5,476 nt of DNA from Deltaproteobacteria bacterium (GTDB lineage Bacteria; Desulfobacterota; BSN033; UBA1163), in assembly GCA_016875155.1 (NCBI GenBank), contig VGSD01000220.1:1-5476 (forward strand), written 5' to 3'. A program made the translations under genes and the position numbers. The notes under the pieces are model-generated. The model was not told the DNA's origin. It saw nothing but the letters and a program-made list of their open reading frames with translations, and made no database searches. This document shows positions 2-4,591 of the stretch, in pieces (the first letter of the stretch is position 1; every line of letters starts with the position of its first letter).

Positions 2-667
2 GACTTTTTTGAACTCTTTGCAGATTATGCCAAGAATATCATCATTGGATTGGCTCGCATGGGAGGAAAGGTGGTTGGAGTGGTTGCCAATCAACCTCAG
101 GTATTTGCTGGATGCATTGACATTAATGGTTCGGATAAGAGCTCTCGGTTTATTAGAACCTGCGATGCCTTCAATATTCCCCTGGTGACGCTGGTGGATG
201 TGCCTGGTTTTCTCCCTGGCACGAATCAGGAATACGGGGGAATTATCCGCCATGGAGCGAAGATGCTTTACGCCTGGTCGGAGGCCACGGTTCCCAAAAT
301 CTCCTGCATCATCCGAAAAATGTATGGAGGATCCATTCCAGCCATGGGGGTTCATCAAATTGGCTTTGATCAGGTGTTTGCCTGGCCTACTGCGGAGATG
401 CAGATGGTCGGAGCAGAGGCTGCTGTACAAGTCCTCTATGGAAAAGAGCTGAAGACGGTGAAAGACCCTGATCAATTTCTTACGGAGAAGGTCAGAGAAT
501 ATCAGGAGACTTATTTAACCCCCTATCATTCAGCTTCGAGGTCGGTCATTGACGCCGTGATCCATCCCAAAGATACACGCAGAAGGATCATCAGCGCCTT
601 AAGTATTCTGGAGACGAAGAAGGAGATGGGCCGAGCTTGGAGAAAACATGGGAATATCCCCGTTTGA
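2..667 (+). CDS. Acyl-CoA carboxylase carboxyltransferase subunit (PccB/MmdA-like), 5'-truncated
   Basis: This is the C-terminal 221 codons of a carboxyltransferase subunit; the frame is open from base 2, so the real start lies upstream, and the TTG at 50 is internal. Family members of about 510-520 residues transfer CO2 between carboxybiotin and an acyl-CoA (propionyl-CoA carboxylase beta, methylmalonyl-CoA carboxyltransferase or decarboxylase alpha) in the cytoplasm. Visible motifs are VDVPGFLPG (about 194-220), the oxyanion-hole stretch GGIIRHGAK (236-262), RKMYGG (314-331) and AWPTAEMQMVGAEAA (380-424), ending in the family-typical RKHGNIPV. Where PccB proteins read YGGAYDVM this one reads YGGSIPAM, so the acyl-specificity Asp (Asp422 of Streptomyces coelicolor PccB) aligns with Pro. 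No biotin carboxylase or biotinyl domain gene is in the window. Stop TGA 665-667 overlaps the ribosome site of the mutase gene. The family is clear; the substrate is not. Confidence 0.93.
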   Translation, partial: DFFELFADYAKNIIIGLARMGGKVVGVVANQPQVFAGCIDINGSDKSSRFIRTCDAFNIPLVTLVDVPGFLPGTNQEYGGIIRHGAKMLYAWSEATVPKISCIIRKMYGGSIPAMGVHQIGFDQVFAWPTAEMQMVGAEAAVQVLYGKELKTVKDPDQFLTEKVREYQETYLTPYHSASRSVIDAVIHPKDTRRRIISALSILETKKEMGRAWRKHGNIPV

Positions 668-676: not shown

Positions 677-2335
677 ATGGATTCAATGGATGAGATCAAA
701 AGAGAAAGAGAAAAATGGGAAAAAGAGATGTTGGCAAAAAACCCCATCTCTCCAACAAAGACGACCTCCGGCATAGACGTGGATGTCGTTTATACGCCCG
801 CTGATCTTGAAGAGATTGACTACAGCCGGGACCTTGGGTTTCCGGGGAAATTCCCTTTTACGAGGGGAGTCTATCCTACGATGTTTCGCGGAAACCTCTG
901 GTCAATGAGGCAATATGCTGGCTTTGCCGATGCAGAGGAGTCAAACAGGCGATTCAAATACCTCCTGGAGCAGGGACAATCGGGCCTGAGTGTGGCTTTT
1001 GATCTTCCCACTCAGATGGGATTTGATTCTGACAATCCCATGGTCCGTGCAGATGTGGGCCGAGTGGGTGTGGCCGTGGATACGCTCCGGGATATGGAAA
1101 TTCTGTTCGATGGCATTCCCTTGGACAAAATCACCACCTCCTTCACGATCAATGCCACTGCTGCCATCATCTTGGCCATGTATCTGGCTGTCGCTGAAAA
1201 ACAGGGGGTCCCGATGGAGAAAGTGGGAGGGACTCTACAGAATGAGATTCTGAAAGAATATATCGCCCGTGGAACATTTATCTTTCCACCCAGACCTTCT
1301 CTCCGGCTGGTAGTCGATATCATCGATTTCTGTAAAAACCGCGTCCCCCGGATGAACACCATCAATTTTTCTGGATATCATGTGCGAGAAGCAGGCTCGA
1401 ACGCCATTCAGGAAGCAGCCTACTGCCTTTCCAGTGCCATCACCTATGTTGAAGAAGTGCTGAAACGGGGGATTGACATTGATGATTTTGCCTCTCGCAT
1501 TGCCTTCCATCTCATTGTGGGATTGGATTTCTTTGAAGAAATTGCCAAGATCAGGGCGACGCGCAGCCTCTGGGCAAAAATCGCTAAGGAGAGATTTAAG
1601 GCAAAGAACCCGAAGTCGATGATGTTACGACTTTTCTGCGGTTCGTCGGCGCGGGAGGCCACCCTGAGAGAGCCTCTCAATAATATTATCCGGGCAACGA
1701 TCGATATGATGGGCATCGTCTTTGCCGGGGCTCAGTCTGCAAGCATCCTGAGTTATGACGAGGCCTATACCATTCCCACAGAGGAATCGGCGTTGATCAG
1801 CCTGAGGACACAGCAGATCATTGGGTACGAGACCGGCATTGCGAAAGTGGTTGACCCGCTCGGTGGATCTTACTATCTGGAGAGCCTGACCCATAGGATG
1901 GAAAAAGAGATCAAAGCCCTGATTGATGAAATCGATGCAGCCGGAGGGATGCTCTGCTGTATCGAAACAGGAAAGATTCAGATGGACGTATTAAAGAACG
2001 CATATGAAATTGAAAAGAGAAAACAGAGCGGAGAGACCGTGATTGTCGGTGTCAATAAATTTGTCGATGAGCAGAAACAGGATGAAGAAATTGTCCTCAC
2101 CAAAATCGACCCCCGTCTTTCCGAAAAACAGATCCAGAGGCTTCATCAGGTAAAAGCAGCAAGGGACAACAAGAAGGTGGAGAAGGCTTTGAAGGCTTTA
2201 AGAGAGAAGGCCATGGGTACGGAGAATCTTGTTCCTTCCATCCAGGAGGCTGTTAAGGAATACGCCACGGTAGGAGAGATTTGTGACACACTGAGGGAGG
2301 TCTTTGGAGAGCATCAGGAATCGGTTGTGCTGTAA
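677..2335 (+). CDS. Adenosylcobalamin-dependent acyl-CoA mutase, large (catalytic) subunit, divergent methylmalonyl-CoA mutase family
   Basis: A 552-residue TIM-barrel subunit of the methylmalonyl-CoA mutase family, which rearranges acyl-CoA skeletons by a radical mechanism. It lacks the C-terminal B12 domain, which the next gene supplies, as in archaeal and other two-subunit mutases. Using Propionibacterium shermanii numbering in brackets, it retains Arg78 (87), Tyr80 (89), Phe108 (117), Gln188 (197), Arg198 (207), His235 (244), Arg274 (283), Lys313 (321) and Glu362 (370). Tyr89 and Arg207 contact the substrate carboxylate in methylmalonyl-CoA mutase and are Phe and Gln in isobutyryl-CoA mutase, so a dicarboxylic acyl-CoA is favoured here. 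Several other pocket positions differ: Asn73 (Arg82), Ala276 (Ser285), His278 (Phe287), Phe320 (His328), Gly322 (Gln330), Ala325 (Gly333), Leu358 (Asn366) and Thr365 (Ala373). The usual HTQTAG segment reads FCGSSA. The family is certain; plain methylmalonyl-CoA mutase activity is doubtful. Confidence 0.9.
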   Translation: MDSMDEIKREREKWEKEMLAKNPISPTKTTSGIDVDVVYTPADLEEIDYSRDLGFPGKFPFTRGVYPTMFRGNLWSMRQYAGFADAEESNRRFKYLLEQGQSGLSVAFDLPTQMGFDSDNPMVRADVGRVGVAVDTLRDMEILFDGIPLDKITTSFTINATAAIILAMYLAVAEKQGVPMEKVGGTLQNEILKEYIARGTFIFPPRPSLRLVVDIIDFCKNRVPRMNTINFSGYHVREAGSNAIQEAAYCLSSAITYVEEVLKRGIDIDDFASRIAFHLIVGLDFFEEIAKIRATRSLWAKIAKERFKAKNPKSMMLRLFCGSSAREATLREPLNNIIRATIDMMGIVFAGAQSASILSYDEAYTIPTEESALISLRTQQIIGYETGIAKVVDPLGGSYYLESLTHRMEKEIKALIDEIDAAGGMLCCIETGKIQMDVLKNAYEIEKRKQSGETVIVGVNKFVDEQKQDEEIVLTKIDPRLSEKQIQRLHQVKAARDNKKVEKALKALREKAMGTENLVPSIQEAVKEYATVGEICDTLREVFGEHQESVVL

Positions 2336-2348: not shown

Positions 2349-2750
2349 ATGGCAATTCGAGTATTGATTGCAAAGCCGGGCTTGGATGGTCATGACAAGG
2401 GCGCTAAAACAGTAGCCGTCGCTTTAAAGAATGCAGGGATGGAAGTGGTCTACACGGGCCGCCGCCAAAGTGTGGACCAAATCGTGATCACAGCCATTCA
2501 GGAAGGAGTGGATGTCATTGGCCTGTCCATCCTTTCGGGTGTCCACATAGAAATCACAGAACAGTTGATGGAAAAGATGAAGGAGAAAAAGCTCGAGACA
2601 ATCCCTGTCGTTGTTGGCGGCGTCATTCCTCATCAAGACAGAGCGGTTTTGAAAAGGATGGGCGTGAGGGAGGTTTTCCCCATTGGTTCCACTTTTGAGG
2701 AGATTGTTCAGGGGATTACGAAGATTGCCAAGGAGGGAAACAGGAGGTAA
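2349..2750 (+). CDS. Acyl-CoA mutase small subunit, B12-binding domain
   Basis: A 133-residue stand-alone cobalamin-binding Rossmann-like subunit that pairs with the large subunit encoded 13 bases upstream. The base-off/His-on signature DxHxxG is present as Asp13, His15 and Gly18 in KPGLDGHDKGAK, with Lys9 at the position of Lys604 in Propionibacterium shermanii MutB; His15 is the predicted lower axial ligand to cobalt. The other nucleotide-tail motifs follow: Ser60-Ile-Leu62 (SxL), Gly90-Gly91 in VVVGGVIPHQD, and Gly113-Ser114. Length is normal for separate small subunits (about 130-145 residues). Its B12 motifs look entirely standard, unlike the altered large subunit, which suggests that the complex still uses adenosylcobalamin. 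The last codons carry the AGGAGG ribosome site of the next gene, so translation is probably coupled. Confidence 0.95.
   Translation: MAIRVLIAKPGLDGHDKGAKTVAVALKNAGMEVVYTGRRQSVDQIVITAIQEGVDVIGLSILSGVHIEITEQLMEKMKEKKLETIPVVVGGVIPHQDRAVLKRMGVREVFPIGSTFEEIVQGITKIAKEGNRR
2742..2747 (+). promoter_or_regulatory. Strong ribosome binding site inside the end of the small-subunit gene
   Basis: AGGAGG, a near-consensus Shine-Dalgarno, overlaps the last two codons of the B12 subunit. It stands five bases before the ATG at 2753, with the TAA stop lying between them. This fixes the hydratase start and suggests efficient re-initiation. Confidence 0.8.
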
Positions 2751-4417: not shown

Positions 4418-4591
4418 AAAGGGACATGGGTGAGCCGTTCGGAAACGCTTCGAGGCGAACCTTCAGACCAATGGGCACTCACGTTTCTAACCCATACTGG
4501 AATTCACCTTTGTTGAAGTCCAGCGATTCCCTTAAGACATCCAATGAACCGCCATTCGAAGCGTTGGAGAGTGGATTACCCATGGCCCTTT
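4418..4591. repeat. Imperfect long inverted repeat (MITE-like or palindromic element)
   Basis: Arm 4418-4453 is complementary to arm 4556-4591. The outer blocks AAAGGGACATGGGT (4418-4431) and ACCCATGGCCCTTT (4578-4591) pair at 13 of 14 positions. The inner blocks AACGCTTCGA (4444-4453) and TCGAAGCGTT (4556-4565) pair at all 10. Both arms have the same 12-base interval between blocks, with about 5 of 12 pairing, giving roughly 28 of 36 matched positions by hand alignment around a 102-base centre. The equal spacing argues against chance. It contains no transposase, and I could not find a clear target-site duplication. A degenerate miniature transposable element or a dispersed palindromic repeat is the best reading; a structured untranslated RNA is the alternative. 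Confidence 0.55.

Follow-up and report, generated by a model that had tools for sequence, protein, structure and literature searches.

A conserved subfamily of two-subunit, B12-dependent acyl-CoA mutases with an altered active-site pocket

The stretch of DNA analysed here (5,476 nucleotides, referred to as the window) encodes a two-subunit, adenosylcobalamin-dependent acyl-CoA mutase whose large subunit keeps the Tyr/Arg pair of methylmalonyl-CoA mutase (MCM) and carries an altered active-site pocket. There is good support for assigning it to a new mutase subfamily. That its specificity is also new can reasonably be inferred, at about even chance, and a substrate class never seen before is possible. 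The reading we favour, to which we also give an even chance, is that the enzyme most likely converts a substituted malonyl-CoA to the corresponding substituted succinyl-CoA and back, rather than acting on plain methylmalonyl-CoA and succinyl-CoA.

The open reading frame list and profile searches gave six plus-strand genes in the window (Table 1). The gaps between the first five measure 2 to 13 nt and the starts are preceded by purine-rich stretches, so that these genes look like one operon. The fragment of the carboxyltransferase gene, which ends 9 nt upstream of the mutase large subunit, matched PF01039 (271 bits) and, partially, the mmdA model TIGR01117 (321 bits against a cut-off of 998.8); its best solved relative is transcarboxylase 12S (1on3). 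The mutase large subunit scored 687.9 bits with TIGR00641 (cut-off 303.8), and the best solved relatives of the small subunit were 2yxb and 4r3u_C. A PF01642 barrel subunit accompanied by a separate B12-binding subunit is the two-gene mutase layout, which places the pair in the superfamily. The gene of the short-chain dehydrogenase (SDR) starts 253 nt downstream of that of the 3-hydroxyacyl-CoA dehydrogenase (HADH). Most of this gap is occupied by a 36-nt imperfect inverted repeat (window positions 4418–4591, 78% complementary, arms 102 nt apart); an Rfam scan of the window gave zero matches up to E = 1. Within the 5.4-kb window there was no gene for a fumarate-adding enzyme, a CoA-loading enzyme, a racemase or MeaB, and its 5476 bases held no homologue of iaaF, iaaL or iaaB; the contig extends further, the matches that represent the window's own HADH and SDR being listed on a contig of 10,110 bases.

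Table 1. Genes of the window and the two altered pocket segments
Feature	Positions	Strand	Remarks
Biotin-dependent carboxyltransferase, C-terminal 221 aa (methylmalonyl-CoA decarboxylase alpha / PCC beta / transcarboxylase 12S type)	2..667	+	5' end outside window
Acyl-CoA mutase large (substrate-binding) subunit, 552 aa	677..2335	+	PF01642, 674 bits; FCGSSA/SASILS pocket
F320–A325 codons (FCGSSA)	1634..1651	+	Replaces HTQTAG/HSQTSG, His328–Gly333
S354–S359 codons (SASILS)	1736..1753	+	Replaces SLHTNS, Ser362–Ser367
Cobalamin-binding small subunit, 133 aa, GLDGHDKGAK motif	2349..2750	+	TIGR00640, 127.1 bits (cut-off 57.45); PF02310
Enoyl-CoA hydratase (crotonase family), 258 aa	2753..3529	+	PF00378; best solved relative 5z7r
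3-Hydroxyacyl-CoA (3-hydroxybutyryl-CoA type) dehydrogenase (HADH), 281 aa	3542..4387	+	PF02737 and PF00725; best solved relative 6aa8
Short-chain dehydrogenase (SDR), 257 aa	4641..5414	+	PF00106; NF006070, 348.9 bits (cut-off 279)

In MCM, which is of the Tyr/Arg type, the substrate bears a carboxylate besides the migrating CoA-thioester: the carboxylate is held by the Arg/Tyr pair, an adenosyl radical is made over the corrin, and the thioester migrates between neighbouring carbons. Alignments showed that Tyr80, Arg198, His235, Gln188 and Glu362 of the query are retained equivalents of MCM Tyr89, Arg207, His244, Gln197 and Glu370. A sequence-only reading of this DNA had reported the first three, together with eight substitutions (Arg82 to Asn73, Ser285 to Ala276, Phe287 to His278, His328 to Phe320, Gln330 to Gly322, Gly333 to Ala325, Asn366 to Leu358 and Ala373 to Thr365) and the segments FCGSSA and SASILS; all of these are present and in register. 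The MCM pocket signature (HxQTxG and SLHTN, with His328/Gln330 and Asn366) is absent, Phe320, Gly322 and Leu358 standing in its place. Two descriptions in that reading hold in part. The changes had been called cobalamin-facing, which, given the MCM structures, fits positions ~328–333 and 366–373 and does not fit 82 and 285, presumably contacts on the CoA side. The positions had also been called nearly invariant, which is too strong for four of the eight: among 69 mutases selected for having His328 and Gln330 (usual P. shermanii numbering), Ser285 occurs in 49, Phe287 in 50, Asn366 in 46 and Ala373 in 44. Gln330 and Asn366 are assumed here to touch the adenosyl ribose. The text retrieved by a literature search did not name these two contacts in MCM and confirmed Glu370 alone, which interacts with the adenosyl group of bacterial MCM (PMC4413051). 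A structure model of the large subunit had a mean pLDDT of 80.4 and a pTM of 0.85, and was poor (pLDDT < 50) at residues 52–70 and 111–129, near the pocket.

About 100 related sequences from environmental DNA carry the altered pocket. Among the matches listed, 99 clusters (P0001–P0099) lie at 77–90% identity to the query, and A276, H278, F320, G322, S323, A325, A355, S356, I357 and S359 are identical in all 99, with L358 and T365 in 98 and N73 in 78. Tyr80, Arg198 and His235 are likewise present in 99 of 99, and 233 of the 552 positions are invariant over these rows. Elsewhere in the alignment examined, Leu358 was seen in P0102 only, a 423-aa fragment at 84% identity that is a member of the same clade. 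The next relatives drop to 60–65% identity and have different pocket letters: P0100, P0101, P0103 and P0104 retain A276/H278 and combine FCGP or FVGP with AA(S/A)N(F/Y)S, while P0105–P0120 mostly have FAGTMA and ALHVTG. The only organism-named clade members among the matches listed are P0041 and P0046, both 'Syntrophales bacterium'.

This fixation across the listed clusters indicates that the altered residues are not the product of decay, as the sequence-only reading had held. Loss of the Gln330 and Asn366 equivalents, the ribose contacts assumed above, could be expected of a decayed or non-catalytic paralogue, but such an origin is highly improbable given the identical altered residues and invariant positions just described, the intact reading frames of both subunits, and a Glu362 (Glu370) that is invariant across a 31-row alignment. 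Since the pocket is altered and the change is conserved in about 100 relatives, the substrate is probably something other than methylmalonyl-CoA.

Trees were built from 140 rows and, with bootstraps, from 45 rows hand-picked from the 140. The query protein fell outside MCM in both. In the 45-row tree the query formed a clade with P0001, P0046, P0091 and P0093 (support 100/99), which was nested in three larger sets: 8 rows with the P0100 group (100/99), 13 rows with the FAGTMA group and one mutase of locus L004 (99/97), and 16 rows with L021/L023 and another L004 mutase (90/93, the least well supported of the three). Throughout the 16-row clade Tyr89/Arg207 are retained, position 328 is Phe or Tyr, and position 330 is Gly or Ala. 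MCM from human, P. shermanii, M. tuberculosis, an E. coli record (L083, an unannotated copy) and L012 formed a separate clade (100/100). Removal of 66 columns surrounding the pocket left the same nested sets (SH-aLRT 99, 98 and 98), and with these columns dropped, a tree constrained to unite the query clade with the five MCM rows was rejected (55.3 log units worse, p-AU 1.8e-5). The finding that the sequence-only reading had said would overturn it, a place within MCM among proteins with the same residues, was looked for and not seen.

These results bear on an alternative in which a diverged large subunit carries out the ordinary MCM reaction of the route from propionyl-CoA to succinyl-CoA, its adenosyl pocket having diverged into a different but functional arrangement. 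The query shares with MCM the fold and the Tyr89, Arg207, His244, Gln197 and Glu370 equivalents, and both Pfam and TIGR00641 assign it to the family. A carboxyltransferase directly upstream would also suit this reaction: of 77 other mutase loci whose upstream sequence was long enough to judge, 12 have one immediately upstream, in each case with the canonical HTQTAG/SLHTNS pocket. The neighbour thus fits the ordinary propionate route too and does not by itself tell the two readings apart. We nevertheless consider the ordinary MCM reaction rather unlikely. MCM and query belong to separate, fully supported clades whose union is rejected, and the MCM pocket reads HxQTSG/SLHTN(S/A), as against FCGSSA/SASILS. 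Each of the five MCM rows in the tree has His328 and Gln330, as does a two-gene Ilyobacter mutase (Tyr/Arg with HTQTGG/SLHTNS) encoded beside MeaB, methylmalonyl-CoA epimerase and an acyl-CoA carboxylase beta subunit, whereas the window holds no epimerase gene. With PRK09426, the NCBIfam MCM equivalog, the query scored 591.8 bits against a cut-off of 876, but that model describes a fused chain of 721 positions.

Of the characterised lineages, 2-hydroxyisobutyryl-CoA mutase (HCM; HcmA, PDB 4r3u) lies nearest to the query in the trees; it shares the two-gene layout and is 44–46% identical. Its signature we take to be Ile at the Tyr89 position and Asp117. This Ile was seen in 4r3u and in Methylibium HCM, and the Aquincola and Methylibium enzymes combine Ile/Gln, at the positions of Tyr80/Arg198, with HCQTAA; the pocket as a whole reads HCQTAA/SLHTNG. 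The query differs in all of these, having Tyr80 in place of Ile and an Ala107 that aligns with the Asp. The proximity of HCM is one of the points in favour of a mutase for a different polar acyl-CoA, in which the Tyr/Arg pair would bind a group that is not the malonyl/succinyl carboxylate, for instance on an intermediate of the neighbouring hydratase and dehydrogenases. The hydratase, HADH and SDR lie in the same cluster, and the HCM pathway also uses a 3-hydroxyacyl-CoA dehydrogenase (PMC7888143). This option appears unlikely, because HCM itself has Ile/Gln where the query has Tyr80/Arg198 and because the carboxyltransferase neighbour suggests malonyl-type chemistry.

Other known types also differ from the query. 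Isobutyryl- and pivalyl-CoA mutases (Icm, IcmF) are presumed to be marked by Phe and Gln at the Tyr89/Arg207 positions, where the query has Tyr80 and Arg198. MeaA, which we take to be ethylmalonyl-CoA mutase, a characterised type with a longer substrate, is closer in kind: the Ruegeria protein (annotated 'protein meaA') is of the Tyr/Arg type and has replacements at positions 328 and 366 as well (Gly and Pro). It is nevertheless a single polypeptide, not the product of two genes, is 32% identical to the query, keeps Gln330 in a GVQVNS/AVQLPA pocket, and forms a very long separate branch whose own placement is unsure. The claim of the sequence-only reading that the protein matches no mutase subclass therefore stands for the isobutyryl, 2-hydroxyisobutyryl and ethylmalonyl types, as does its wider view that the protein is neither decayed nor inside MCM; its list of subclasses was incomplete, omitting IaaGH and MatB/ActD. 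A literature search on mutase subclasses and this group returned no description of the group in titles and abstract openings.

The F/Y-x-G mutases of uncultured Thermodesulfobacteriota and others (P0100–P0120 except P0102; L020, L004 and L021–L023) fall in one clade with the query, keep Tyr/Arg and have lost His328 and Gln330. Their pocket letters differ from those of the query (e.g. FCGPAP/AASNFS, FAGTMA/ALHVTG or FAVGGGG/AVMTCP), and we know of no characterised member. All 24 rows without His328/Gln330 in the 45-row set, whose rows were hand-picked, keep Tyr/Arg and imply at least three changes on the tree. In a 124-row set the pair is lost in 23 of 62 Tyr/Arg rows and also in many rows without Tyr/Arg, so its loss alone does not reveal the substrate. 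Among the Tyr/Arg mutases typed by name or gene context (that of Ilyobacter, MeaA and the plasmid group described below), positions 328, 330 and 366 vary where the setting is not that of plain MCM, which is suggestive only.

Several further mutase groups were noted in passing. Plasmid mutases of Diaphorobacter, Paraburkholderia, Sulfitobacter and Marinobacter (L081, L082, L134 and L135) combine Tyr/Arg with GVVCGG/SxFTCA; their operons encode a hydratase, a B12 subunit and a CoA-transferase (family III by Pfam in Paraburkholderia), with GTPase and TRAP genes in some. This is another uncharacterised mutase route, and its carriers are named organisms. Two Streptomyces plasmid mutases (49% identical to L082) were considered as relatives of ActD/MatB and set aside, having HTQTAG/SLHTNS and no carboxylase or reductase annotated nearby in 21.6 and 17.5 kb. 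Locus L004 (1510–12059) has a cluster, followed by TRAP genes, in which two distinct mutase pairs of the F/Y-x-G type occur together with genes named by eye as a VOC-family protein, MmgE/PrpD-like and thiolase-like proteins and an acyl-CoA ligase. Eight genomes of one bacterial class (G099, G230, G131 and five more; 1.9–3.1 Mb) have 16–32 first-look large-subunit candidates each (loci L050–L128 in part), with 29 PF01642 matches in G099 and 30 in G230. Neither Tyr89 nor Arg207 is found in 21 of 30 G230 rows and 25 of 27 G099 rows, the distant rows being possibly misaligned. This class is a large unexplored radiation of B12 mutases.

The surroundings of the mutase in its relatives were examined in two ways. 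Exact sizes of the longest contig were compared between clusters, using the best 120 matches per gene (118 of 120 rows for SDR). Of the 45 mutase clusters whose contigs reach 5 kb or more, at least 12 match an HADH or SDR cluster in size, 8 with HADH, 7 with SDR and 3 with both; randomly shifted sizes, a control for the HADH comparison only, gave a mean of 0.05 HADH matches and a maximum of 2. Linkage of the mutase to HADH/SDR thus seems conserved. The P0100–P0120 group had zero exact size matches with the listed HADH or SDR clusters. Searches for clade members in other genomes were negative: six peptide patterns run against contigs matched 27 times and brought up four relatives at 46–59%, none of them in the clade; 395 genomes of one phylum, sampled evenly from a larger set, contained nothing closer than 62% and no clade member; and seven whole classes (those of G004, G116, G131, G188, G109, G117 and G145, with 23, 8, 8, 10, 6, 3 and 12 genomes, partly overlapping the 395 and none a known host class of the clade) contained none. 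With P0100 as query, G116 was the sole match.

The G116 relative (62%, identical to P0108) has a complete carboxyltransferase upstream, with a gene for a GntR regulator between it and the mutase. Downstream lie the small subunit, a family III CoA-transferase (the family to which IaaL presumably belongs), a broken second mutase and a TRAP transporter. The broken second large subunit (L087, 3382–4015) consists of two overlapping short reading frames resembling the N-terminal part. A CoA-transferase with a mutase is the arrangement of the IaaL/IaaGH steps of indoleacetate degradation, where IaaGH is the phenylsuccinyl/benzylmalonyl-CoA mutase and IaaL the phenylsuccinyl-CoA transferase working with it (PMC8360864). 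Conversion of a substituted succinyl-CoA to a substituted malonyl-CoA followed by loss of a carboxylate is described for IaaGH/McmLS-type routes (PMC8360864 and PMC5606693). For alkylsuccinate, Candidatus Smithella cisternae has been proposed to combine rearrangement with a carboxyltransferase (PMC5606693), and MatB/ActD are proposed hexylmalonyl-CoA mutases (PMC5719088). The likeness of the query to IaaGH and alkylsuccinate-linked McmLS is one of proposed reaction type, drawn from published descriptions of those routes.

For a substituted malonyl-CoA/succinyl-CoA mutase, the following mechanism can be envisaged. By homology to MCM, Arg198 and Tyr80 would grip the substrate carboxylate, and Gln188 and His235 the thioester. 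The 5'-deoxyadenosyl radical would be made over the corrin of the small subunit and held as in MCM, and the CoA-thioester would, as there, migrate between adjacent carbons. With polar His328, Gln330 and Asn366 replaced by Phe, Gly and Leu, the wall may admit or position a non-polar substituent. The carboxyltransferase could then remove or add the malonyl carboxylate, and the hydratase and dehydrogenases would take the product through beta-oxidation, in anaerobic Syntrophales. In favour of this proposal are the retained Tyr80/Arg198 and His, the fixed pocket, the clade outside MCM, the alteration of MeaA at 328 and 366, the canonical pocket kept by the Ilyobacter mutase in its MCM-like setting, the carboxyltransferase 9 nt upstream, the G116 context, the Smithella proposal for alkylsuccinate and the HADH/SDR linkage. 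Against it, the effect of the substitutions on pocket size is mixed (Phe for His and Leu for Asn increase side-chain bulk, Gly for Gln reduces it), the 5.4-kb window has none of the fumarate-adding, CoA-loading, racemase and MeaB genes, a carboxyltransferase also stands beside canonical mutases, and loss of His328/Gln330 is uninformative alone. A bolder version, which we offer tentatively and hold to be clearly less probable, is that these enzymes form an isofunctional class of B12 mutase in their own right: the polar cradle of the adenosyl ribose (His328, Gln330, Asn366) would have become a hydrophobic wall with a hole at 330, steering the radical onto a bulky substituted malonyl- or succinyl-CoA that no characterised mutase uses. 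Such a class would then belong to a broader F/Y-x-G radiation among uncultured anaerobes, whose branches would each act on an acid of their own.

B12 acyl-CoA mutases have few known substrate classes, and nearly everything else carries the label 'methylmalonyl-CoA mutase' in databases. Among the best 120 matches most were nameless, and the legible source names were all of the methylmalonyl-CoA mutase kind or 'acyl-CoA mutase large subunit family protein'. With its altered radical pocket, this conserved subfamily suggests that other chemistry of syntrophic carbon degradation is concealed behind these labels. It also provides a concrete test case for control of the adenosyl radical by the pocket, in a gene pair that is small and assayable.
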